NCBI GenBank assembly: GCA_005862225.1
Contig: SZXV01000002.1
Coordinates: 682,001 to 746,000 of the forward strand
Source of the DNA: Chlorobium sp.
GTDB lineage: Bacteria > Bacteroidota > Chlorobiia > Chlorobiales > Chlorobiaceae
Reading direction: 5' to 3'
Length of the DNA: 64,000 nt
Under the pieces are notes generated by a model. It made no database searches and had not been told where the DNA came from. It worked only from the letters and a program-made list of their open reading frames with translations. Below are positions 10,564 through 21,572 of this stretch, in pieces (the stretch's first letter is position 1; each line of letters opens with the position of its first letter). The position numbers were made by a program, and so were the translations under genes.

Positions 10564-10751
10564 TTGAATATAAAAAAGCCAGTAAACAGCGTTTTTATGC
10601 CGATCAGTATAAGAAGCAGAAATATAATGAGATATAGGGGGTAAATTTTTATTTTATATGCGATTAACTGTTGATTGTATTGTTTGTGTTTTGCGTCTTA
10701 TATGGGTTGTAACTCAAAAATACGCCGTTTAGAAGGATCAATCTAATTATT

Positions 10752-10758
10752 GTTATGT
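10752..10758 (+). other. Core site GTTATGT at left edge of cassette array
   Basis: The heptamer GTTATGT is identical to the right-hand core of attC A (11406-11412). It lies 34 bases before the first cassette gene, where a cassette junction is expected. No complete attC or attI is visible upstream, so this may be the remaining half of a lost site or a secondary insertion point. The bases between rfbC and this point (10564-10751) hold no gene that I can see. Confidence 0.45.
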
Positions 10759-10791
10759 GTTGCAAAACAACCCAGAAAGGCCGTTTAACCA

Positions 10792-11325
10792 ATGGAAAAG
10801 AAAATAGCTGAGTACGAGGCTACGCAAGCTTCTTATCTGCACTACGATAGCTTTAGATGGCAGGCAGGTTCATTGCTCATCGCAGGAGTTTTTGTTTTCT
10901 GGGGTCTGTTGATTAGCACGTCTCCACCCACAACGCCAAAAATTGTGGGGCTGGCCGGCATACTTGTTTCGCTCCTAATGACCATATGGGTGTTGTTCGC
11001 CCACCATTATCGGCAAATCTACCTATGTAAGCTCCACCGTATGCATGAATTGGAGAAGGATCTTTCTTTTGAACAACACCGTAGATTTATTCATGGCGGC
11101 GTCGAGGGGCGGCAGTACAGAGTATTCGGACCAAAAGGGCATAATCTGGATTTAGCCATCTATATTTGCTCATCCTTTGGAGGTTCTTTCGTGGGTTGGA
11201 TGCAATCAGGTTTTGATTTGTGGCTTATCTCACCTTTACCGCTAGTCACACTTGTAACCCTATATGTGCTAGTAAATGAGCATCGAATCACCAGTTTTTT
11301 GAAGAATTGGAATACAAACACATAA
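10792..11325 (+). CDS. Cassette-encoded membrane protein, unknown function
   Basis: A 177-residue product with two hydrophobic segments near residues 27-42 and 50-70 and a further one or two near the C-terminus (about 120-160). The N-terminal helix is soluble and there is a central cytoplasmic-looking region of about 50 residues with many charged residues. The stop codon (11323-11325) lies inside the left arm of attC A, the classic layout for an integron cassette. I do not recognise the family. It is the first gene of the array. Confidence 0.65.
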   Translation: MEKKIAEYEATQASYLHYDSFRWQAGSLLIAGVFVFWGLLISTSPPTTPKIVGLAGILVSLLMTIWVLFAHHYRQIYLCKLHRMHELEKDLSFEQHRRFIHGGVEGRQYRVFGPKGHNLDLAIYICSSFGGSFVGWMQSGFDLWLISPLPLVTLVTLYVLVNEHRITSFLKNWNTNT

Positions 11326-11412
11326 CATTGCGCTCAACCGGAGCGCGGCTATTTGGCGCTTTGTTAATTTTCAGGCTTTCCAGGGCCGCGCCAGGTTAGC
11401 TTTACGTTATGT
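11320..11412 (+). other. attC site A (cassette recombination site)
   Basis: The outer boxes ACATAAC (11320-11326) and GTTATGT (11406-11412) are perfect reverse complements. Inside them GCTCAACCGG pairs with CCAGGTTAGC, leaving one extra unpaired base, as attC sites require for strand choice. A mismatched spacer separates outer and inner boxes. The 93-base length fits, and the site begins at the stop of the preceding gene. Confidence 0.85.
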
Positions 11413-11418
11413 CATTCA

Positions 11419-11616
11419 CTAGCAGCCTGTCGGACTTAATGAAAAAAGTTAAACTATTTTACGATAAAGTATAAAGATAGTGTATATGATATATTATAAT
11501 ATTGATCTGAGCGTCATACTACAGTAGCGATAAAACTTTTTCATGGAAATCAAACTCAAATCGCCTTTTTTACGCTATTAATCTGCAAACATATTCAAAG
11601 TCCGACAGGCTGCTAG
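11419..11616. mobile_element. MITE-like element with 19-bp terminal inverted repeats
   Basis: CTAGCAGCCTGTCGGACTT at 11419-11437 is repeated as its exact reverse complement at 11598-11616. A second inverted pair lies just inside: ATGAAAAAAGTT on the left and AACTTTTTCAT on the right. The interior is very AT-rich and has no open reading frame. At 198 bases with perfect termini it looks like a non-autonomous transposable element. The outermost CTAG on each side could be a duplicated target, as seen with IS5-type elements; that assignment is a guess. It sits between attC A and the next cassette gene and could supply or disrupt that gene's promoter. Confidence 0.75.
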
Positions 11617-11627
11617 GAGTAGGCGCA

Positions 11628-12458
11628 ATGAGTAGTACAAAGGAATGGTTGTTTGACCAAATCGAAGCCAAGAGGAGCAAGCGGTTAGCTGATCTACTCG
11701 GCATCACCGATGACGAGCTTGAACAGATCAGCTACGAAATCGACGTCGATCAGAGCGATGATGGGTTGGTGTATGGCCGCATTGTGCGGTTCGATGGCGA
11801 CAACGACCCAGCAATAATGTCAAAGATTGTTGGTCTTAATTCTGGCTCATATGTGAGCTTGTCGCCATGGGATCTAGATGACCCTGAAGAGGATGAGCTT
11901 GAGTGGGAGGTTGAGAACTCCGAGCAGCTTAAAACGCTCAACAAGCATTTATCCAAAGTACCGCAACTCCTCCAAGTCGACGTAGATGAGAATATTCAAT
12001 TCAGTCTTCTTGTCATGATGCACGTCCATATTGTTTCCGTTCTTGAACAATTCCTGTCTGCAACATTCATACACAACGTAACTAACTCGGATGTCCTGAC
12101 GAGAAAGCTAATAGAAACAGACCCTGAGTTTGGATGTCGTAAATTCACTATGAACGAGATCTACGCTCAGTATAGCAATATCAAGTCGACAGTAGCCGCG
12201 TATCTGAAGGATATAATTTTTCACGACATGCGTAAGGTAAAGCCAATGTATGCAGATGTACTCGGTTATGATTTTGGAGATATTGCATGGCTATTCAAGG
12301 CAGTGTGTCTAAGGCATGATTGTGCTCACAGGGCAGGATATGATAAGGAAGGCAATCAAGTTTCAGTGTCGGTGGCGAGCGTCAATGAGCTGGTTGCACA
12401 ATGCCGGCATTTGTCTGAGAGCATAGATGCGCATGTTCAGAAAATTAACAACCAATGA
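11628..12458 (+). CDS. Cassette-encoded HEPN-like protein
   Basis: A 276-residue product. The C-terminal half is helical and carries RHDCAH (R229, H234), the R-x4-H motif of catalytic HEPN ribonucleases, followed by RAGYDKEGN, as in HEPN domains of toxin and defence proteins. The N-terminal 110 residues are acidic (several Asp/Glu runs near residues 80-95) and not recognised. The start has only a modest ribosome site (GGAGTAGG). The stop TGA at 12456-12458 touches attC B. I infer an RNase-type toxin or defence function from the motif and context only. Confidence 0.65.
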   Translation: MSSTKEWLFDQIEAKRSKRLADLLGITDDELEQISYEIDVDQSDDGLVYGRIVRFDGDNDPAIMSKIVGLNSGSYVSLSPWDLDDPEEDELEWEVENSEQLKTLNKHLSKVPQLLQVDVDENIQFSLLVMMHVHIVSVLEQFLSATFIHNVTNSDVLTRKLIETDPEFGCRKFTMNEIYAQYSNIKSTVAAYLKDIIFHDMRKVKPMYADVLGYDFGDIAWLFKAVCLRHDCAHRAGYDKEGNQVSVSVASVNELVAQCRHLSESIDAHVQKINNQ

Positions 12459-12523
12459 CATAACCTTTCGCTCAACACGGACGCGCATAAAAGCGGCGCG
12501 CGCCGGTTAGCTTTACGTTAGCC
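12458..12523 (+). other. attC site B
   Basis: The outer boxes are ACATAAC (12458-12464) and GTTAGCC (12517-12523). The inner arm CGCTCAACACGG faces CCGGTTAGCTTTAC, nearly the same right arm as attC A (GGTTAGCTTTACGTTA). The centre is a GC-rich hairpin. The site starts on the stop codon of the HEPN cassette gene. Length 66 bases. Confidence 0.88.
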
Positions 12524-12537
12524 ATTACGGAGATTCA

Positions 12538-13383
12538 ATGCCACCACAGTCAAAACCATCTCGTGCCGGATTGCCGCTTCTGATTATCGTCTTCTCAGTG
12601 ACACTACCATTGCTGTTCTTCTTCGGATGGGCAGTCGGAAGGCAGAACGTACCTGGTGTATCAATATCCCCTGATTCCATTTCTTCGTGGGTTTCGGCAT
12701 TGGCGACAGTGGCGATCGCTGTGTTGACGTTCATCTTGGCCAAAGAAACTTGGTATTTGCGCGAGACGCAAACCCAACAACTTGCAGAACTGAAGCGAGA
12801 AAATATCCGACCAAACGTCAACGTCCAACTCGATCCAAGTCGCGTCGGCCTGAACTTCGTTGATGTGAAGGTCAGCAACCTCGGAAAAGGAATTGCACGA
12901 AAAGTCGTTGTCGAATTTCTTGATCGACAAGGCGCACGCGTTGCGGAGGGGGTTGACCCCGTTGTCGAGAAATTTCGGAAGCTAGCAATATTCCGCCAGG
13001 GTATCGAGTCCATGGGGATTGGTCAAGTCATTACCAGCTTCGTCTTCAGTTTCATCGATTTAAACGACGAGCTGAAAGGTGAGATCTTCAAGCCTTTGTT
13101 GCAAATGGTCGTGCGATTCGAAGACATAGAAGGGAATCAGTACAAGAACGAATTTGTTGTCGACTTTGCTCAGTACCAAGGAATTAGTGAGTTAGGCGGT
13201 GGTGACCCACTGCACTTGATGTCAGAGGAGCTGAAAAAGCTCTGCGGAGTTATGGAGAAGGTAGCCCGCTCAGACAATCGGATTGGAGTTAACGTCTATG
13301 ACACAGAAGACAGAGAGGCGGAGCTTGCGGCTACTCGCAAGTATTTGTCCGAACAAAAGCGAATTGCGCAGGGTAATGGCTAA
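12538..13383 (+). CDS. Cassette-encoded membrane-anchored protein, unknown function
   Basis: A 281-residue product with two hydrophobic segments, at about residues 12-34 and 45-65, then a short coiled-coil-like stretch (WYLRETQTQQLAELKREN). A soluble domain of about 180 residues is rich in beta strands (VNVQLDPS, VDVKVSNLGKGIARKVVVEF). The pattern of two N-terminal helices plus a beta domain is common in small uncharacterised accessory proteins. The stop lies inside attC C. Base composition is closer to 50 percent GC than in later cassettes. No family name can be supported. Confidence 0.7.
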   Translation: MPPQSKPSRAGLPLLIIVFSVTLPLLFFFGWAVGRQNVPGVSISPDSISSWVSALATVAIAVLTFILAKETWYLRETQTQQLAELKRENIRPNVNVQLDPSRVGLNFVDVKVSNLGKGIARKVVVEFLDRQGARVAEGVDPVVEKFRKLAIFRQGIESMGIGQVITSFVFSFIDLNDELKGEIFKPLLQMVVRFEDIEGNQYKNEFVVDFAQYQGISELGGGDPLHLMSEELKKLCGVMEKVARSDNRIGVNVYDTEDREAELAATRKYLSEQKRIAQGNG

Positions 13384-13446
13384 CCAGCCGCTCAAGCCGA
13401 ATCGCGTTGGCATGCCAACGCTCGCGGCTCAGCTTCAACGTTAGAT
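13378..13446 (+). other. attC site C
   Basis: GGCTAAC (13378-13384) and GTTAGAT (13440-13446) are the outer boxes. Between them CCGCTCAAGCCG faces CGGCTCAGCTTCAAC, with a central palindrome GTTGGCATGCCAAC. This is the most textbook-like attC of the array (69 bases), resembling the classic 59-base elements. The gene before it stops inside the left arm. Confidence 0.92.
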
Positions 13447-13476
13447 TTAGAAAAACGGATAACGAGACATTGAATC

Positions 13477-15117
13477 ATGGCTTATCGTGAAATGTGGGAA
13501 ATGGAAGTGCGTCATGATGGCTTAAACAAATATCGCCATATTCGGGGTTCTGATAGATATGTTGTAGAGCAAAAAGCTGCCGCTCAGAAACTTGCATGGG
13601 ATGAGATGTGGGAAAAGAAGCAAGTTACAAGAAGCAAAGAAGAGAAATACGAATTGGCTGTTATCAAAACAGACGAAGCCCAAAAAGCACTCGAAGGTTT
13701 GGAGTTAACTCTTAAACACACGTTATCGGTAGATGATGCAATTGATTGGTCATCACTTTTAGATATTAAGCCGTTTCCAAAAAGAAAGCCGTCCCAGCCA
13801 ACTCAAGAAACCATCCCTGCTGAGCCAACAAAATCTGAGTCAAAATATCAGCCAGATATTGGACTTTTCGACAAAATATTCTCAAGTTCAAGGATAAGAA
13901 AACAAGACGAAGCAGAAAACCTGTATTTGAAAGATCATCAAGCATGGAGCGAAGGAAAAAAGAAAATAGAATCCATGAATGCAGATCAAGTATCAAAATA
14001 CACTATGGACTTAGAAATATGGGAAAAGGAAAAGAACAAGTATGAGGAGAACCAAAGGTCAAGGAATGGATTAATACAAAAAAAGAAGGATCAGTACTTT
14101 AACAAGGAGTCAGGCGCAGTCTCTGACTACTGCGAAATGGTGCTAAACAATTCAGTTTATCCTGAATATTTTCCCCAAGAATGGGATCTTGATTATCAAC
14201 CTGAGTCAAAGATACTGATTATTGACTACTCTCTGCCAGATATAGACTCTATTCCAACAACAAGAAGCGTTAAATATGTTGTCTCTAGGGATGAATTTAT
14301 TGAAACCCACTTATCATCTGCGGCATTGAACAAGCTCTATGATGATCTGTTATATCAAATTGCCCTCAGAACTATACACGAATTATATGAGGCTGATGTT
14401 ATTGAAGCACTTGACTCAATTGTTTTTAATGGCTGGGTAGACACTGTAGACAAAGCAACAGGGAATAATGTCAACTCGTGCATAATGTCTTTACAGGCTT
14501 CAAAAAATGAGTTTCTATCCATCAATCTTGAGAAAGTTGATCAAAAAGCATGTTTCAAACAGCTAAAAGGTGTTGGTAGTAGTAAGCTACATGGCTTGTC
14601 ACCCGTTGCGCCACTTATAAGTATTAACAAAGAAGACAGACGCTTCATATCTGCCTATGCTGTTGCAGATGAAATTGGCAGCTCCGACAATCTTGCTGCG
14701 ATGGATTGGCAGGATTTCGAAAATCTAATAAGAGAGATATTCGAAAAAGAGTTTGTTAGTTCTGGCGGCGAAGTAAAAATAACTCAGGCTAGTAGAGACG
14801 GTGGCGTGGACGCTATAGCTTTCGATCCAGATCCTATACGTGGCGGAAAAATCGTTATTCAGGCTAAGAGGTACACAAATGTGGTAGGTGTATCTGCGGT
14901 TAGGGACTTATACGGGACAACTTTAAACGAAGGAGCAACTAAAGGAATACTCGTTACTACTGCTGATTATGGTCCAGACGCCTATGAGTTCGCTAAAGGA
15001 AAACCGCTCACATTGTTGAACGGAAGCAATTTGTTGCACTTACTGGAAAAGCATGGGCATAGGGCGAAAATCGATTTGAAGGAAGCAAAGCAAATATTGA
15101 GCGAGAAAAAAATTTAA
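13477..15117 (+). CDS. Cassette-encoded Mrr-type restriction endonuclease-like protein
   Basis: A 546-residue protein. The C-terminal domain (about 405-535) is a PD-(D/E)XK nuclease of the Mrr_cat type. It has DWQDFENLIREIFEKE, then DGGVDAIAF (D441-D445) and IVIQAKR with the Q462-x-K464 catalytic pair, then a GILVTTADYGPDAYEFA strand-helix typical of Mrr. The N-terminal 250 residues are charged and partly coiled coil (about residues 130-215), and the middle is not recognised. Mrr enzymes cut modified DNA, so a role against foreign DNA is likely. The gene is AT-rich. The stop overlaps the degenerate site attC D. Confidence 0.82.
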   Translation: MAYREMWEMEVRHDGLNKYRHIRGSDRYVVEQKAAAQKLAWDEMWEKKQVTRSKEEKYELAVIKTDEAQKALEGLELTLKHTLSVDDAIDWSSLLDIKPFPKRKPSQPTQETIPAEPTKSESKYQPDIGLFDKIFSSSRIRKQDEAENLYLKDHQAWSEGKKKIESMNADQVSKYTMDLEIWEKEKNKYEENQRSRNGLIQKKKDQYFNKESGAVSDYCEMVLNNSVYPEYFPQEWDLDYQPESKILIIDYSLPDIDSIPTTRSVKYVVSRDEFIETHLSSAALNKLYDDLLYQIALRTIHELYEADVIEALDSIVFNGWVDTVDKATGNNVNSCIMSLQASKNEFLSINLEKVDQKACFKQLKGVGSSKLHGLSPVAPLISINKEDRRFISAYAVADEIGSSDNLAAMDWQDFENLIREIFEKEFVSSGGEVKITQASRDGGVDAIAFDPDPIRGGKIVIQAKRYTNVVGVSAVRDLYGTTLNEGATKGILVTTADYGPDAYEFAKGKPLTLLNGSNLLHLLEKHGHRAKIDLKEAKQILSEKKI

Positions 15118-15190
15118 CGCTTCACATTCACATGGACATCAAAAAGCACCGCTGGTTCTTCTCCCTATGCGGTGATGTGATGCGTTCGCA
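15112..15190 (+). other. Degenerate attC-like site D
   Basis: ATTTAAC (15112-15118) begins at the stop of the Mrr-like gene. The arms AACGC-T-TCACATTCAC and GTGATGTGA-T-GCGTT pair with one mismatch and one extra T. An inner CACCGC/GCGGTG pair extends the fold. The right outer box (GTTCGCA) fits the consensus poorly and the spacer is too short, so this could instead be a plain hairpin. Confidence 0.45.
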
Positions 15191-15200
15191 ATCGTGAACA

Positions 15201-15572
15201 ATGACCTATTTAAAAGAAATAATGGAATTATTGGGTGTGAGTGAAACTGATGCCATTAAGGCAATACTCAATCTTGTTTCACCTTTCCCTCCACATGCTA
15301 CTATACAAAACTGGACAAGGCTTTCAACCTTTGGACATGATGCTCCGACAACCAAAGATTTATGGAAAAAACTGGAGGGGTCAGATTTTCGTTGCCATAG
15401 ATGTGGAAGCCAAATGAGACTTTCTTTTAACAATATGAACAGCAACCCAAAAGCTCATCGGCTTGAGAACTTGGAAGTTATCTGTTTTTCATGTAATCGT
15501 TCTGTGTCAAAGAAAGGAAACAAAGACAACCATCATCATTATAAGTTAGCAATGGCTGCAATAGAACTTTAG
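15201..15572 (+). CDS. Cassette-encoded HNH-like zinc finger protein
   Basis: A 123-residue protein with two CxxC pairs: CHRCGSQM near residue 68 and CFSCNRS near 97. The stretch LENLEVICFSCN followed by KKG resembles the end of an HNH nuclease finger (normally NLxxLCxxCNxxKG). The histidine-rich start of the HNH motif is not clearly present; the segment before reads MNSNPKAHRLENL. It may be a small HNH endonuclease or a zinc ribbon that lost activity. The next gene is 116 bases downstream with no attC between, so the two may share a cassette. That gap holds a small 6-bp hairpin (ATGTAG/CTACAT). Confidence 0.6.
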   Translation: MTYLKEIMELLGVSETDAIKAILNLVSPFPPHATIQNWTRLSTFGHDAPTTKDLWKKLEGSDFRCHRCGSQMRLSFNNMNSNPKAHRLENLEVICFSCNRSVSKKGNKDNHHHYKLAMAAIEL

Positions 15573-15688
15573 AAAGAAAATGATATATACCCAGCCCTTT
15601 CAGAAATTCAAATTCGTGCAAAAGTAGAACATGTAGGCGGGGCTACATATTTACTTAAATATATAAAAAATCGATTATTGAAAAAACT

Positions 15689-16516
15689 ATGACAAAGCTA
15701 AAATTCCCAAGCAAACAACTTGAAAATATAAATATTAAAATCAGGACTGAATCTCTCAGGTCTCTAATTGAGTTGATCAAAGCCGGAATAGATTATAAGA
15801 AAAAAGAATCGCTTCAAATAATTGATAAACTAAATAATAAAATCGAAGATGAGTCTGATTTACACGAAGTAACAACTAAAGAAGCAATTTTTGAATTAGA
15901 ATATGTCAATTATTTTGAAGGGCCATTTATATGTTCTCAGTTAGAGAATGTGGCCGCATATTCAATTATTCCAGCATGTTATATGATTTTTGAGACAAAT
16001 TTAGTTGCGTTCGCTGAAATTGCAAGAAGGCATTTTTATATTGAGTTAAAGTGGAATGAATTATTTGGTGGGAAAACAGACAAAATTAACACGTATTTAT
16101 CAAAGTTTGCTCACATTGATGTATCAAATATTCAATCGTGGCCACCACTAAAAGAACTCGAGATTATCAGAAATTGCATTATTCACAATGAAGGTAAAGT
16201 AAATGAGGAGTTTAGAGATCATTCGAAAATCGAAAATATTATTAAAAAATATCCGAATCATATTTCTGTAAACAAGCCGCTGCATGAAAATGAAAAATAT
16301 ATAATTGTTAAATTGAGCTTATGTGGCCTTTTTCTCGAGAAATTAAATTCCTTTTTTGATGAGCTTATTGCCCTATTTGGGTTTGACCAGAATTTTTACT
16401 TTGGAGCAGAAGCTTCGCGGCGGATTCTGAATGAAAGAATTCAAGCCAAAAAAGAATTTGACTGTTCAGTGGGAAAAGCAAAAGAAATATACTTTAACAG
16501 GATGAAATCACTATAA
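15689..16516 (+). CDS. Cassette-encoded HEPN-like protein
   Basis: A 275-residue, mostly helical, AT-rich gene product. The segment LKELEIIRNCIIHNEGKV contains R161-N-x3-H166, the RNxxxH form of the HEPN ribonuclease motif seen in MAE_28990/RiboL-PSP-like and Abi-type proteins. The flanking helices include ETNLVAFAEIARRHF before it and LCGLFLEKLNSFFDELI after it, a common HEPN layout. attC E begins 5 bases after the stop. The function is inferred as an RNase-type toxin or abortive infection protein. Confidence 0.65.
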   Translation: MTKLKFPSKQLENINIKIRTESLRSLIELIKAGIDYKKKESLQIIDKLNNKIEDESDLHEVTTKEAIFELEYVNYFEGPFICSQLENVAAYSIIPACYMIFETNLVAFAEIARRHFYIELKWNELFGGKTDKINTYLSKFAHIDVSNIQSWPPLKELEIIRNCIIHNEGKVNEEFRDHSKIENIIKKYPNHISVNKPLHENEKYIIVKLSLCGLFLEKLNSFFDELIALFGFDQNFYFGAEASRRILNERIQAKKEFDCSVGKAKEIYFNRMKSL

Positions 16517-16520
16517 AAAA

Positions 16521-16608
16521 TGCTAACAATCGGGTAAACTTGATCGCCGAAAGCTGCGTTCTTCGAGCGTAGTTTAGTGGCGGCGGCAGGTTACCCTTGG
16601 CGTTAGGC
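16521..16608 (+). other. attC site E
   Basis: TGCTAAC (16521-16527) and GTTAGGC (16602-16608) are the outer boxes, with one mismatch when paired. The inner arm CGGGTAAACTTG pairs with CAGGTTACCC, leaving one extra A. The centre of about 50 bases can fold. The position just after the stop of the second HEPN gene fits a cassette boundary. Length 88 bases. Confidence 0.8.
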
Positions 16609-16667
16609 GATAACAGATGAACAATGTAGAATCAACTAATTTCCCGCAATTTTAGGTATATCACCTT

Positions 16668-18311
16668 ATGCAACAATCTGAAGATATTAAAGTTGTCAAC
16701 GCTTTCATAAATGAGTGGATTATTAGTGCTAACGTAAAATCGGTTCTCCATATCAAAGCATCAACATTCAATCTGTTTTCCAATCTCTTTGATATAGAAA
16801 CCCAAGAAGTTAAAGCGGCTGAGTTTATACCAACAAATGCCCACTACGATTTAATTCTTGGTGATATTCCTTTGGCTATGGGTCAAGACACTTGGAATAA
16901 TGGCGTAAAGCTTATTAAGGCTCAACACAACTGGCTCGAAATTTTACAATCTTTACTATCACTTGAAGAAAATGGGTCTGCCATATTTGTATTAGAACCT
17001 CGAGGATTTGGTTTTGCTCGAGGAATTGCATTTGAGAAAGAGCTTAATGAGCATGGTTTTTTTGTGAATGCCTATGTTAATTGCCCTGAAAGAATACTTT
17101 TGCCAGAAACAGTAATAACGCCTGTTTTGGCGGTTTTATCAAAAAAGAAAGTAAAACAATTATTTGTAGCCGAGCTATTAGACGAATATCAAGCATCACA
17201 AGTAGTTCGTAACTATTTTTCAAATACCGATAATGGCAATTTAGCAAGCGGTAAATATATAAATGCAGGCGACTATTACGGATTTCACCGAATCAAAGCA
17301 AAAGAGAGAATTGAATGTTTAGAATCTCAATATAAAACTTACAAAGAATATTGTCTGGGGGATTTGGTTGTTCAAAAAGACAATGAAAAACAGATTAACC
17401 GTGTGGCAACAGGTGAACAATTTCAAGAAACTGAAAATGCTGTTTATATTCCTACCATAGGAAACTCACCCGTTATTTCTAAATTGGAAGATGCTAAATT
17501 AAAACATCAAAATTATTTTCAGGTTGTACTTGGCGATTTGGCAATTAATGACTATGTCGCATCATTCTTTAATTCTACTCTGGGTAAATTAATAATTGAT
17601 TCCTTAACATCAGGTTCTTTTATTCCTCATCTTAATAAAAGAGACATAGAACAAGCCCTTGTTGCACTTCCAGGTCTGGATGAACAAAAACACATAGTAC
17701 AAACTCATCATAAACTTCATGAATTGAAAGTTGCCATTAATACGTTTGATGCAGAACTGGCTATTAATCCAACCAGTTCAAATGCAATATTAGGACAGTT
17801 GGATATGATGCTTGAGGCTATCGGTGCATTGACCGATGCAGATAAAGTTCGGGGGCTTGTGCGTGAAGGTGAATCAAAGTATCTCGAGTTTAAAGAGACA
17901 CTTAGTTTGGATGTCAAAAAACAGACCAAAGAAAAATATATTGAAGATTCAGCATTAAAAACAGTCGTTGCCTTTCTAAATACTGATGGTGGAAAACTGT
18001 TAATCGGTGTTTCAGATACTGGAGCAATACTCGGCTTAAATGTAGAAATTGATAAATTTGACAAGAGCCTGGATAAGTTTCTTTTGCGTTGGAAAAATTT
18101 TGTAAAAAACAGGGTTGGAGAAGCGTTTTATCCATTTATTGAGTACAAAGTTATTAATGTGGACGACAAGTATATACTTCTTGTCGAATGCGAACGTTCT
18201 CCGCGTCCGTGCTATTTGGATACAAATGATTTTTATGTAAGAACTAATCCAGCAACTGACAAGCTTGAAGGTCCAAAATTGGTTGAATATGTACAAAACC
18301 ATTTTAAATGA
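16668..18311 (+). CDS. Cassette-encoded degenerate DNA methylase-like / AlbA_2 fusion
   Basis: A 547-residue protein with an unusual layout. Residues 1-180 resemble the fold of N6-adenine methylases of type I systems, but the catalytic (N/D)PPY/F tetrad is replaced by GDIP (65-68, in DLILGDIPLAMG), so base methylation is doubtful. Residues 200-370 resemble the target-recognition part of HsdS/methylases (SGSFIPHLNKRDIEQALVALPGLDEQ). Residues 397-520 are an AlbA_2 (Schlafen-like) domain: EGESKYLEFKETL and AFLNTDGGKLLIGVSDTGAILGL. AlbA_2 domains occur in defence and regulator proteins. The gene is AT-rich and lies between attC E and F. Defence is inferred, not shown. Confidence 0.78.
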   Translation: MQQSEDIKVVNAFINEWIISANVKSVLHIKASTFNLFSNLFDIETQEVKAAEFIPTNAHYDLILGDIPLAMGQDTWNNGVKLIKAQHNWLEILQSLLSLEENGSAIFVLEPRGFGFARGIAFEKELNEHGFFVNAYVNCPERILLPETVITPVLAVLSKKKVKQLFVAELLDEYQASQVVRNYFSNTDNGNLASGKYINAGDYYGFHRIKAKERIECLESQYKTYKEYCLGDLVVQKDNEKQINRVATGEQFQETENAVYIPTIGNSPVISKLEDAKLKHQNYFQVVLGDLAINDYVASFFNSTLGKLIIDSLTSGSFIPHLNKRDIEQALVALPGLDEQKHIVQTHHKLHELKVAINTFDAELAINPTSSNAILGQLDMMLEAIGALTDADKVRGLVREGESKYLEFKETLSLDVKKQTKEKYIEDSALKTVVAFLNTDGGKLLIGVSDTGAILGLNVEIDKFDKSLDKFLLRWKNFVKNRVGEAFYPFIEYKVINVDDKYILLVECERSPRPCYLDTNDFYVRTNPATDKLEGPKLVEYVQNHFK

Positions 18312-18358
18312 GAGTCCGATAGATACTTATAATAACTGGGGTCAGATTAAAGTTAAAT

Positions 18359-18419
18359 GCCTAACTCAACGTTCCAGCGGAGCTTCGCTACGCTACGCCC
18401 GTTAGCTTTGTCGTTAGGC
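18359..18419 (+). other. attC site F
   Basis: GCCTAAC (18359-18365) and GTTAGGC (18413-18419) are perfect reverse complements that match the consensus exactly. The inner right arm is CGTTAGCTTTGTC and the centre is a GC-rich hairpin. Its left arm is nearly repeated at the array end (site G). Length 61 bases. Confidence 0.92.
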
Positions 18420-18439
18420 TTCACAATGGAAATAGCGAG

Positions 18440-18733
18440 ATGATTACGAGAATATTCAGAGTAAGAGTTCCAGCATCACTACATGCTGAGTTCGAATCAA
18501 AGTTTAAATCCGTATCAGTGCCGTATGTGAAATCGGCAAAGGGCTTGCTTTCAGTCATAGTCGGTCGACCAACATGTTGGGAACCAGAAGAGTATGTAAT
18601 GATTTCCACATGGCAAAGTGAATCTGATATTGTAGTCTTTGCAGGTGAAAGCTGGAACAAGGCTGTAATTCCGCATGGCATGGAAAAGTACGTTTCTGAG
18701 TGTTGGGTTCACCACTATGAAGATTTCAATTAA
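18440..18733 (+). CDS. Cassette-encoded ABM-like small protein
   Basis: A 97-residue protein whose strand-helix pattern resembles the antibiotic biosynthesis monooxygenase (dimeric alpha-beta barrel) family: ITRIFRVRVPASLHAEFES, then SAKGLLSVIVGRPTCWEPEEYVMISTWQSESD. The ending VSECWVHHYEDF also fits. The substrate is unknown. Such small barrels are common cassette cargo. The gene starts 20 bases after attC F, and a half attC follows it. Confidence 0.6.
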   Translation: MITRIFRVRVPASLHAEFESKFKSVSVPYVKSAKGLLSVIVGRPTCWEPEEYVMISTWQSESDIVVFAGESWNKAVIPHGMEKYVSECWVHHYEDFN

Positions 18734-18747
18734 ATTGTGGCAGGCGG

Positions 18748-18772
18748 GCCTAACCCAACGTTCTCAGTGAGC
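18748..18772 (+). other. Truncated attC site G (left half only)
   Basis: GCCTAACCCAACGTTC copies the left arm of attC F (GCCTAACTCAACGTTC) except one base. No matching right arm or GTTAGGC core follows before the hsdR fragment. This marks the broken right edge of the cassette array. Confidence 0.7.
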
Positions 18773-18840
18773 TATCAAACTTATGGTGTTGCTGTTGCTT
18801 ATGGGAATTATTTTTGAAAAGCATTTCACGGGGCATTTCC

Positions 18841-19138
18841 ATGACGAATGAATACGCGATCGAGCTTGGTCTTATCGATAAATTGGAAGATCTCAAATAC
18901 AAGTATCGGGAAGATATTCGTGACCGTGCCGCTCTGGAAAAGAACTTTCGTGAGAAGTTTGATGCGCTTAATCGGGTGCATTTGACGGATGCGGAGTTTG
19001 CCCGGTTGCTGGATCTGATTGTTACTCCAGATGTTTTTGTGGCTGCACGGCATCTGCGCGAGCGGAATAGCTTTGATCGGGATGATGGTACGCCATTGTT
19101 TTATACGTTGCTGAATATTAAGGAGTGGTGTAAAAATA
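18841..19138 (+). pseudogene. hsdR fragment, N-terminal ~100 codons of type I restriction subunit
   Basis: The ATG at 18841 opens a segment that reads like the N-terminal region of HsdR, the motor/nuclease subunit of type I restriction enzymes: NEYAIELGLIDKLEDLKYKY, REDIRDRAALEKNFREKF, NRVHLTDAEFARLL and a segment ending NIKEWCKN. A full HsdR has about 1000 residues; nuclease and helicase domains are absent. After WCKN the frame runs on for about 15 unrelated codons to a stop at 19185, while another frame picks up zeta-toxin sequence. The open frame reaches back to 18814. It cannot restrict DNA. A decayed hsdM follows at 20.9 kb. Confidence 0.85.
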
Positions 19139-19546
19139 ATCAATGCCGATCTCATTGCAGCCGGACTCTCACCCTTTGCCCCTGATGTGGCTGCCATCAA
19201 AGCAGGACGCGTCATGTTGGAAGAGATTGCCGCTTGTGTGCGACGTGAAGAAAGCTTCGCTTATGAAACCACGCTATCCGGCCTTGGTTATCTGACGCAT
19301 ATCCAGCAATGGCGCGCTCAAGGTTTTTGGGTGAGCCTCCATTTTCTGGCGTTACCCGATGTCGAAACGGCCATTGCCCGTGTAGCGGAGCGCGTTCGCC
19401 AAGGAGGGCATAATATTCCTGAACCAGTAATCCGCCGCCGTTTTATAGCGGGATTGCGTAACTTTGAGCAACACTACAAAGCCGAGGTAGATGCTTGGGC
19501 TAAATACAACAACACTGGCAAGATACCGGTGTTATTAGAATGGTGA
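19139..19546 (+). pseudogene. Zeta-toxin-family ATPase/kinase, 5'-truncated
   Basis: From about 19139 the frame reads INADLIAAGLSPFAP, then a KAGRVMLEEIAACVRREESF stretch, AYETTLSGLGY, and later AERVRQGGHNIPEPVIRRRF with a C-terminal LRNFEQHYK. This is the zeta-toxin/AAA-type kinase family, whose members start with a Walker A loop (GxNGAGKT type). That loop and about 35 upstream residues are missing because the hsdR fragment is joined in their place. An internal ATG at 19187 could begin a 119-residue product, but without the P-loop it should be inactive. The stop overlaps the start of the following small gene by 7 bases, keeping the toxin-partner layout. Confidence 0.8.
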
Positions 19547-19782
19547 GAAAACCTGTGAACGCAAAAGATATTTCCACGGCTAAAAACCCAGACCTTCGTG
19601 GTTCATTAGCCGCTCTGCAACGAGCCGCAGCATTGGCCCGTGAAACCGCTATTCAGACGAATACCAATATCGTGATTGAGAAAGATGGAAAATTGGTGTG
19701 GATTTCAGCGAAGGAACTGCGCCGCCAGGCATCAGAGGTAAAAGAATCTATAAATCCCCAGCCTTCCGACCTGGTATTGTGA
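19540..19782 (+). CDS. Small partner (antitoxin-like) of the truncated zeta-type gene
   Basis: An 80-residue protein: MVRKPVNAKDISTAKNPDL, then a helix with LAALQRAAALARETAIQTNT and a strand pair (IVIEKDGKLVWISAKELRRQ). Short proteins of this type commonly sit directly after zeta-family kinases and probably act as their antitoxin. It is intact, although the upstream toxin has lost its N-terminus. The start overlaps the toxin stop, implying translational coupling. The antitoxin role is an inference from position. Confidence 0.65.
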   Translation: MVRKPVNAKDISTAKNPDLRGSLAALQRAAALARETAIQTNTNIVIEKDGKLVWISAKELRRQASEVKESINPQPSDLVL

Positions 19783-19869
19783 TTCATTGCAGGATACCCC
19801 TGAGTTCCTATATTAACAGAAAACAGTGGACTCATTGAAATTCAGTTCATTTCGAAAAGGCACGACACT

Positions 19870-20736
19870 ATGCTTTTAAAAGATCGTTACATAAACCCCT
19901 TTACCGACTTTGGTTTCAAGAAAATCTTTGGCTCCGAGGTAAACAAAGAGCTGCTGATAGCGTTTTTGAATACGCTCTTGCCAGCAGAGGCGGGTATAGT
20001 TTCCGACCTTTCATTTTTGCGCAATGAGCAGGTTGGGCGGAGTGAATACGACCGCAGGGCAATTTTTGACCTATATTGTGAAAATGAAAAGGGTGAAAAA
20101 TTCATCGTAGAGATGCAGCGGGCAAAGCAGAACTACTTCAAAGACCGATCAATTTTTTATGCCACATTTCCTGTTCAACAGCAGGCACAGAGCGGATCGT
20201 GGAATTTCTGCCTGAAGGCAGTCTATCTGGTCGGTATTCTTGATTTCGTGTTTGATGAAGATAAAGCTGATAATGAGGTCGTTCACCATGAAGTAAAGCT
20301 GGTTGATCGTTCAACGGGGGCAGTTTTCTCCGACAAGCTCACCTTTATTTACCTCGAACTTCCCAAGTTCACGAAAACGATTGATGAGCTTGTTACTGAC
20401 TTCGACAAATGGTGTTTCCTTCTTCGCCATCTCCCTGAGCTGACTGACCGACCGGCTTCTCTTCAGGAAAGGGTCTTCCTCAAAGTATTTGAACTGGCAG
20501 AAATCGCAAAGTATTCGAGTGTGGAAGCGGCAGCTTATGAAGAGAGCCTCAAGGTCTATCGAGACCTGAAGAATGTTGTCGATACCGCTTATGATGAGGG
20601 CAAGGCAGAGGGAAGAGCTGAGGGCAGCCAGCAAAAGGCCAGGGAAGTTGCAAAAAGCCTTAAAGAGTCAGGGTTAGATATAGAAACGATTTCACGTTGT
20701 ACTGGTCTGCCGGTTACTGTTGTGGAAGGGCTATAG
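19870..20736 (+). CDS. Rpn-family PD-(D/E)XK nuclease/transposase-like protein
   Basis: A 288-residue member of the Rpn/PDDEXK family (PF12784-like, often annotated as putative transposase). The N-terminus MLLKDRYINPFTDFGFKKIFG is diagnostic. The nuclease core shows DRRAIFDLYCENEKGEKFIVEMQRAKQ: the FD aspartate, then E-x-Q of the catalytic core. The C-terminus has an Ala/Glu/Gly-rich linker (EGKAEGRAEGSQQKA) and a helical tail. These proteins promote RecA-independent recombination in E. coli and occur in many copies in green sulfur bacteria and cyanobacteria. It lies between the toxin remnant and the hsdM remnant. Confidence 0.85.
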   Translation: MLLKDRYINPFTDFGFKKIFGSEVNKELLIAFLNTLLPAEAGIVSDLSFLRNEQVGRSEYDRRAIFDLYCENEKGEKFIVEMQRAKQNYFKDRSIFYATFPVQQQAQSGSWNFCLKAVYLVGILDFVFDEDKADNEVVHHEVKLVDRSTGAVFSDKLTFIYLELPKFTKTIDELVTDFDKWCFLLRHLPELTDRPASLQERVFLKVFELAEIAKYSSVEAAAYEESLKVYRDLKNVVDTAYDEGKAEGRAEGSQQKAREVAKSLKESGLDIETISRCTGLPVTVVEGL

Positions 20737-20878
20737 TCAGGGTTTGCGATCCCCACTTGGACAGATCAGTGATACGTTCACTTGCCCCTTTTTAAATCCC
20801 GGTGGTGAGAGAGCATGAAGCAAGATGAAAGCGTCGAAGAGATCAGCCGAAAAACAATGGCGCACACAAAAATCAGTC

Positions 20879-21240
20879 ATGACCGAACAAACCCAGAAAC
20901 CAATGGGTACTACCCTCTGGGGCATTGCCGGTCAATTGAGAAAGGAAAACGCCAGAACCGGTTGCGGGAGGATGATATCGAGAAGATCGTTGATACCTAT
21001 CAATTCCGCTGTGAGGAGTTACGTTACTCTCGACGTGTAACGATGGAGGAGATTGAAACTAACGGCTACAATCTGAATATCTCCCGCTATATCAGTACCG
21101 CTCAACACGAGGCAGAAGTTGACCTGCAAGCTGTTCATGGTGAGCTGGTTGAGATTGAACAGAAAATTGTTGCAGCCACCAGGAAGCATAATGAGTTTTT
21201 AAGGGAGCCTGGGTTACCGTTTTTGCCGATGGGTAAATAG
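20879..21240 (+). pseudogene. hsdM remnant with large internal deletion
   Basis: At 20879 a frame reads MTEQTQKPMGTTLWGIAGQLR, the usual N-terminus of the HsdM methylase of type I systems. Within about 60 bases similarity switches to a different frame: KGKRQNRLREDDIEKIVDTY, then RRVTMEEIETNGYNLNISRY and a tail with LQAVHGELVEIEQKIV and FLREPGLPFLP, the usual HsdM C-terminus. The SAM-binding and NPPF catalytic core of roughly 380 residues is gone. The junction is near 20938-20945. No hsdS is left. An open frame from 20815 covers the C-terminal part, but its first 40 residues are not HsdM-like. Confidence 0.85.
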
Positions 21241-21572
21241 GGGGCGGAGACGTGATGGATATAATGGCTGGAAAAACCGATACCGTCATCAGGTGACGGT
21301 AAAACAACCTTCAGACAAACCCGAAAGAGCCGGGCCACTTCCCGACTCTCTGTGTTGTCAGTGCATGGTGATTTTGCCCCCTACTCTCTCTCTCTTTTTC
21401 ATTATCTTCTGTAACTTTTCGGAATATTCCTTAAGTATACGGAAGGTTCAAAAAAGGGAAATACTGAGCAATTGGCGAAGTTTTGGTAAAGTTTTGTCTG
21501 ATTTTGATGCGTTTTGTTTTTGGTATGGTATATAAAAATAATCAGATATAGGGTTCTCTTGAAAAAAATCGC
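21241..21572. other. Gene-free stretch between hsdM remnant and rfbD
   Basis: No coding sequence is supported here. It holds a perfect 8-bp hairpin TACCGTCA/TGACGGTA (21281-21301) without a T run, a short TC repeat (21384-21395), and an AT-rich end. A possible weak promoter for rfbD is TTGATG at 21504 with TATATA at 21529, though the 19-base spacing is long. Since rfbD no longer follows rfbC, some local promoter is expected. Confidence 0.4.

Follow-up and report, generated by a model that had tools for sequence, protein, structure and literature searches.

A predicted fusion of a degenerate type I methylase, half a specificity subunit and a Schlafen domain in a Chlorobium genomic island, a candidate defence effector

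The island and its cassette-like features

The window, a 64,000-nucleotide stretch of a Chlorobium sp. genome, carries an acquired island at positions 10564-21572. The island separates rmlC from rmlD, which are adjacent in those relatives from the genus whose stretch holds both genes, and its GC content drops to about 35% at 15-18 kb, against 46-50% in the surroundings. Within it lies an open reading frame for a 547-residue protein, with its ATG at 16668, whose homologues align over the full length. Table 1 gives the coordinates of this gene, of the regions of its product, and of the flanking sites and gene remnants.

Table 1. The fusion gene, the regions of its product and the flanking features, in window positions.
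Feature	Position	Strand	Evidence
attC-like site just upstream	16521-16608	+	R'' TGCTAAC, R' GTTAGGC, 6/7 complementary; fold z -0.7 vs shuffles
Pseudo-HsdM / half-HsdS / Schlafen (AlbA_2) fusion, stop included	16668-18311	+	ORF; 15 homologues; AlphaFold2 model, pLDDT 84
Residues 1-205, truncated N6-methylase (HsdM) fold	16668-17282	+	N6_Mtase match of P0002; family profile; Foldseek
Residues 222-390, single HsdS-like recognition domain with long helices (half-S)	17331-17837	+	Methylase_S; PADLOC Specificity_I; EcoKI HsdS profile
Residues 396-547, Schlafen/AlbA_2 domain, predicted RNase triad E402/E407/D450	17853-18308	+	PF04326, E 2.8e-21; SLFN13 alignment
attC-like site just downstream	18359-18419	+	R'' GCCTAAC, R' GTTAGGC, 7/7 complementary; fold z -0.9
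Decayed HsdR N-terminal fragment	18814-19185	+	PF04313 HSDR_N, E 1.2e-5, barely over cut-off
Decayed HsdM C-terminal fragment	20815-21240	+	PF02384, E 2.4e-12; TIGR00497 hsdM, E 3.9e-12

The two attC-like sites that bracket the gene are accompanied by others in the island, at 11320-11412, at about 12460-12525, and probably near 13380-13446. Three copies of the shared GGTTAGCTTTACGTTA end exist in the genome, two of them within the island, and a reversed control gave 0 matches. In folding comparisons with shuffled sequences, only the site at 11320 was clearly better (z -3.0); the remaining attC-like sites scored from -0.4 to -0.9. The relative from a Desulfococcaceae genome (L027) is preceded by a textbook attC that ends about 14 bp before the gene, and another R'' follows immediately after its stop codon. 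Judged by these sequence features, the window gene looks like a single-gene integron cassette, and L027 likewise. No match to the integron integrase model TIGR02249 scored over the cut-off in the host genome, and the island is at best partly an integron cassette cluster, one without a detectable integrase. A single-gene cassette would imply that no fixed partner is needed for the protein to function. An earlier note, made from the letters of the window, had suggested a single-gene defence system; the stand-alone part of that suggestion draws support from the cassette context of this copy and of L027.

Several other genes share the island. The protein encoded at 13477-15117 has an Mrr_cat domain, and its best PADLOC match is a type IV methyl-directed restriction enzyme (E 1.8e-58). 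An HNH-like gene lies at 15201-15572. The product of 15689-16516 (275 residues) weakly resembles the HEPN component of defence reverse transcriptases (PADLOC RTasHEPN, 1.9e-4) and contains an RNxxxH-like motif (IIRNCIIHNEG). Right after the HsdR fragment, a short reading frame at 19187-19546 with no Pfam match looks, by eye, like the C-terminal portion of a zeta-toxin-like kinase. An Rpn-type PD-(D/E)XK recombination-promoting nuclease (E 1.6e-72) is encoded at 19870-20736, between the remnants of hsdR and hsdM.

Domain architecture of the protein and its family

No model in Pfam, NCBIfam or PADLOC describes the whole protein. Pfam recognizes SLFN_AlbA_2 (PF04326) at residues 402-533 with 76.7 bits (E 2.8e-21) against a cut-off of 25.3, while Methylase_S (PF01420) at residues 296-358 reaches 17.4 bits (E 0.0055), under its cut-off of 22, and the methylase part alone has no Pfam match. 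A relative that is 38% identical, P0002, displays the order N6_Mtase, Methylase_S, AlbA_2 in direct Pfam matches. Its N6_Mtase match (PF02384; E 1.2e-7, above cut-off) pairs residues 55-173 with profile positions 122-251 of 311, and its Methylase_S match scores 23.4 bits (E 7.6e-5) against the cut-off of 22.

The family as defined here consists of the window protein and 15 loci from a genome scan, each with the complete M-S-AlbA_2 architecture. A profile built from the 16 sequences matches EcoKI HsdS (1.4e-9), the HsdM of 7eew (2.8e-5) and the Schlafen chains SLFN11/12/13/14 (0.0009), each at the expected segment; type I HsdM chains are matched as well. In Foldseek searches with the AlphaFold2 model, the best matches are N6-adenine methyltransferases, including the intact type I methyltransferase 7eew (E 2.4e-13), BpuSI (the second match), M.TaqI, and HsdM crystal structures. 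The window protein thus qualifies for N6_Mtase membership through structure and family profile only, while P0002 and a longer cousin, P0004 (3.7e-55), qualify directly. These results bear out the three-part order that had been read from the sequence (methylase-like, HsdS-like, AlbA_2), and structure prediction does return the methylase fold whose absence had been named as grounds for abandoning that reading. There is one recognition half in the window protein, versus two in HsdS specificity subunits. Identification as the MADS protein mad5 was rejected: only the recognition domain gave matches to it, and these scored 22-26 bits where the cut-off is 400. We found no description of HsdM-Schlafen fusions in the open literature searched, which extends little into subscription papers and preprints.

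In the C-terminal domain, residues E402, K404, E407, K409 and D450 are invariant in all 16 members. An alignment with SLFN11, SLFN13 and SLFN14 places E402/E407/D450 on E205/E210/D248 of SLFN13, an RNase acting on tRNA and rRNA. Mutation of this triad reduced or abolished RNase activity; SLFN5-N and mouse SLFN1 keep the key catalytic residues, yet left the tested tRNAs uncleaved (PMC5862951). Schlafen RNases are reported to serve prokaryotes as defence effectors, and RNases of the Schlafen family have been listed among BREX backup effectors (PMC12839542). The window protein has the Pfam domain and the E/E/D triad in common with the Schlafen RNases SLFN11-14 and with prokaryotic SLFN_AlbA_2 proteins, and from this similarity we infer that its Schlafen domain is RNA-cutting. 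Animal Schlafens, however, carry two lobes per chain, while the window protein has one lobe behind its M-S module. Because SLFN13 is a two-lobe RNase, a one-lobe AlbA_2 domain would have to dimerise, and the helices of the half-S region would offer a natural dimer interface.

Members of the family occur in Chlorobiota, Ignavibacteria, Bacteroidota, Calditrichota, and Desulfobacterota-type bacteria, in gamma-proteobacteria, Chloroflexi, and Cloacimonadota, and in one ANME-2 archaeon assembly, the sole archaeal member. The spread is patchy and the family rare: of 98 genomes in the class to which the window organism belongs, 2 have a member. A scan of viral_contigs with the N-terminal alignment found no match, and with the full alignment found only the AlbA_2 domains of DUF262 and other fusions; the one match in the phages collection was to AlbA_2 only. 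The lack of a family match in viral_contigs argues that the gene is not typically phage-borne. Candidates L004-L016, from a first phylum search, were set aside as AlbA_2-only relatives, and the long reading frames of L005-L007, considered as living methylase-AlbA_2 fusions, are actually DUF499-AlbA_2 and HsdR-AlbA_2 fusions.

The cousin P0004, a protein of 783 residues from Pseudoalteromonas plasmid NZ_CP011038.1, is an analogue of the window protein in which a degraded HsdM is fused to AlbA_2 within an hsd operon that has an Mrr-like gene. It differs in retaining a nearly entire N6_Mtase domain, in which both the tetrad (SFPPI) and motif I (DPSFCIG) are broken, and is only about 25% identical. 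It probably represents an earlier stage or a parallel case.

Neighbourhoods, conservation and alternative readings

Homologues with the same architecture can thus be found, as the earlier note had proposed to check, and defence genes of the restriction-modification (R-M) type lie beside several. Type I hsd genes adjoin four of the 15 relatives (L026, L032, L033 and L034). Complete hsdM-hsdS-hsdR sets stand beside the family gene in L026 and L034; in L032, a likewise complete set, hsdM-hsdS-DUF3800-hsdR, precedes it; and in L033 it is inserted between the end of hsdM and hsdS. The plasmid gene P0004 stands at the head of an operon that also has hsdM, hsdS, an AlbA_2-HATPase gene and hsdR, with a SAVED gene beyond. 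Ordinary modification partners, which the note had taken to speak against a new system, therefore do exist in these four, but as separate genes, with intact NPPF where readable, so that they do not explain the fusion away. At the window locus, no complete type I R-M system was found, just the hsdR and hsdM fragments of Table 1.

The hsdM genes that adjoin family members are only 21-30% identical to one another. Since the adjoining hsd genes are not orthologous, a dedicated docking partner for the family protein is doubtful. Nor does any orthologue of the other neighbours in the window (hsd remnants, HEPN, HNH, Mrr) recur beside the family; Mrr_cat-type genes lie near the window copy, L026 and L017, but are not orthologous by clustering. 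L020 neighbours a type II restriction endonuclease with a methyltransferase and an HKD-SNF2 helicase. In the Runella genome of L022, an NB-ARC STAND protein (L022:7236-9962) that ends 38 bp upstream of the family gene is a possible sensor partner. No R-M neighbour is visible for L021, L025 and L028-L031, which lie on short contigs.

Related arrangements were seen outside the family. L039:5204-8647 and L038:2655-5822 encode HsdR whose C-terminal AlbA_2/Schlafen domain shares about 45% identity with that of the window protein, L039 within a type I operon; such HsdR-AlbA_2 fusions would be another route by which Schlafen is coupled to R-M. L037:4183-7335 encodes an N-terminal AlbA_2 domain fused to a DUF499 ATPase, beside a DPPY methylase and a large reading frame, in a locus that looks BREX-related. 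The 2.5-Mb host genome of the window (G000) itself has unusually many type I-like genes, with about 10 N6_Mtase loci and 10 HSDR_N matches.

Embedding in hsd operons, in four relatives and on the P0004 plasmid, might suggest a regulator or accessory of type I R-M, one that titrates or replaces the HsdM-HsdS half or controls hsd expression while AlbA_2 serves as a nucleic-acid binder; pseudoenzymes often regulate their active relatives. Such a role fits poorly with two members that stand alone as apparent integron cassettes, with others beside non-type-I genes, with hsdM and hsdS neighbours that are mutually unrelated, and with a nuclease triad invariant in 16 of 16, and we regard it as unlikely.

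The recognition-like region is more conserved across the family than the methylase part (49% versus 34% identity), and the difference runs in the same direction in 119 of 120 pairs. For comparison, ordinary type I systems of the host genome show mean identities of 26% for the best recognition domain and 30% for the methylase, with 14 of 36 pairs in the opposite direction. A recognition region that is conserved rather than diversifying suggests that the sensor has a constrained ligand. A fixed ligand, which might be a single DNA motif or else a protein like the anti-restriction DNA mimics, fits these sequences better than restriction specificity does, and the earlier statement that the protein reads a DNA target is unproven.

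The same observation weighs on the idea of a type IIG-like DNA-targeting enzyme, methylation-independent and with a dead methylase, in which the half-S region reads a DNA motif and AlbA_2 cuts or nicks DNA. The M-S order resembles that of type IIG enzymes, BpuSI is the second Foldseek match, and a stand-alone gene would be enough for such an activity. But the recognition domain is not diversifying, the host genome would need another route to be spared in the absence of the enzyme's own methylation, and the best-characterised relatives of the nuclease domain are RNases (SLFN13, PMC5862951). We consider this idea improbable.

Loss of methylase activity is suggested by two features. Residues 62-69 of the window protein read ILGDIPLA, in which the position of the catalytic tetrad is D-I-P-L, versus the consensus [DNS]PP[YFW]. 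The motif had been noted before as GDIP; its degeneration stands, although that spelling takes in the preceding Gly. By alignment, the NPPF tetrad is replaced in all 16 members, mostly by GD[LIF]P and otherwise by GNFP, ADLP, RFSP or GSFP, so that homologues with an intact NPPY, the counter-evidence envisaged at the time, are absent from this architecture. In nine HsdM domains read in the host genome, by contrast, the tetrad is always NPPF or NPPY. The second feature is that the AdoMet motif I loop, DPxxGxG, has no counterpart in any of the 16, and that the N-terminus is short in every member, with about 100 N-terminal positions of the N6_Mtase profile missing (the P0002 match begins at 122 of 311). 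In the KsgA/Erm rRNA methylases, N-[LI]-P-[YF] serves as a functional tetrad, and GDIP alone is therefore no proof of a dead methylase. Among these sequence signs, loss of the AdoMet loop and the short N-terminus are the stronger evidence.

An active methylase with an unorthodox D-[LI]-P-[FL] motif, as in KsgA/Erm, and the Schlafen domain as its partner would agree with the retention of the first and third tetrad positions in most members. It is nonetheless very improbable, and we rejected the intact-methylase reading on the loss of motif I; in addition to that loss and the missing N-terminal positions, many members have L, I or W as the fourth tetrad residue, and conservation along the protein is lowest in the methylase part.

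Purifying selection could be measured in L020/L021, the only good pair of low divergence. Its dN/dS is 0.066 over the whole gene and, by region, 0.087 (methylase part), 0.026 (recognition region) and 0.070 (AlbA_2). The dead methylase domain is thus kept under purifying selection in this pair. Values for L028/L030 are looser (0.29 for the methylase part, 0.41 overall, range 0.13-0.69), and all other pairs are saturated. A decaying, functionless relic of an R-M gene, as the adjoining decayed hsdR and hsdM fragments might suggest, is hardly credible and was rejected, given the intact frame of 547 codons, full-length relatives across phyla that keep the same conserved residues, and the whole-gene dN/dS in L020/L021.

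A proposed R-M-derived sensor with a Schlafen effector

We think it somewhat probable that the family protein is an abortive-infection effector derived from R-M, with a pseudo-methylase sensor and a Schlafen RNase executioner, either stand-alone or R-M-linked. Under this proposal, the M-S part would sense by binding DNA or a DNA-mimicking ligand without methylating, and in the uninfected cell would keep the Schlafen domain inactive. The trigger might be a target on foreign DNA, or else an anti-restriction protein with which a phage attacks type I enzymes. Infection would then alter the conformation or dimer state of the M-S part, and two single-lobe Schlafen domains would pair into an active RNase whose cleavage of tRNA or other RNA would stop translation and abort the infection. 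The protein could work alone, as the integron-cassette copies would, or provide a second defensive layer beside a type I R-M system. The sequence patterns consistent with the proposal are the domain order in 16 proteins, the predicted methylase fold, the loss of methylase motifs against an invariant nuclease triad, the purifying selection on the dead domain in one pair, the linkage to R-M, the fusions of AlbA_2 to HsdR and DUF499, and the patchy spread together with the low GC and the acquired island. However, some proteins with AlbA_2 domains carry annotations as RNA-binding, DNA-binding or regulatory.

Comparison with known systems shows parallels for each part. In type I methyltransferases (EcoKI M/S, Vibrio 7eew) and M-S fusions, an HsdM fold is followed by an HsdS-like domain, as in the window protein, which differs in having lost the catalytic and AdoMet motifs, in having one recognition half, and in a recognition region that is conserved, not diversified. 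PARIS consists of an ATPase and a TOPRIM nuclease and, unlike the window protein, is without methylase parts. According to PMC12409349, PrrC, PARIS and Ronin are systems in which a tRNase or toxin is set free once R-M enzymes come under attack. As described there, PARIS (AriA/AriB) responds to the DNA mimic Ocr by releasing a tRNase, and PrrC, a translation-stopping RNase, is coupled to the type Ic complex EcoprrI until inhibition of that enzyme by phage Stp releases it. The PrrC gene lies inside the hsd operon, as family genes do in L026 and L032-L034; but PrrC combines an ABC ATPase with a HEPN nuclease and has no M/S moiety, while the window protein joins a dead M-S module and a Schlafen domain in one polypeptide. 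In Ronin (RonA with R-M modification subunits), an R-M-like module that has lost restriction drives a toxin; by the description in PMC12409349, its modification subunits are intact and its toxin is a separate short gene. The window protein, unlike Ronin, has a degenerate methylase and, as its effector, a fused Schlafen domain in the same chain.

Anti-restriction DNA mimics of the Ocr/ArdA type bind type I enzymes whatever their specificity. A tentative possibility is that the protein is a decoy immune receptor, whose dead M-S module would be bound by such mimics because it resembles the conserved core with which type I enzymes bind DNA; this binding would trigger the fused Schlafen RNase. A decoy of this kind would explain the lost catalysis, the non-diversifying recognition region, and type I partners that are unrelated or absent. 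As a trigger, an anti-restriction DNA mimic may best explain the fixed recognition region together with the unrelated hsd partners.

In the sensor-effector proposal as a whole, an R-M enzyme would have been turned into a sensor, with methylation dropped, the M-S scaffold retained, and an RNase related to the antiviral Schlafens of animals joined to it. If the sensor reading is true, the family would represent a single-protein immune receptor that has travelled from phylum to phylum in part as an integron cassette, and it would form a direct link between Schlafen immunity and surveillance by R-M.
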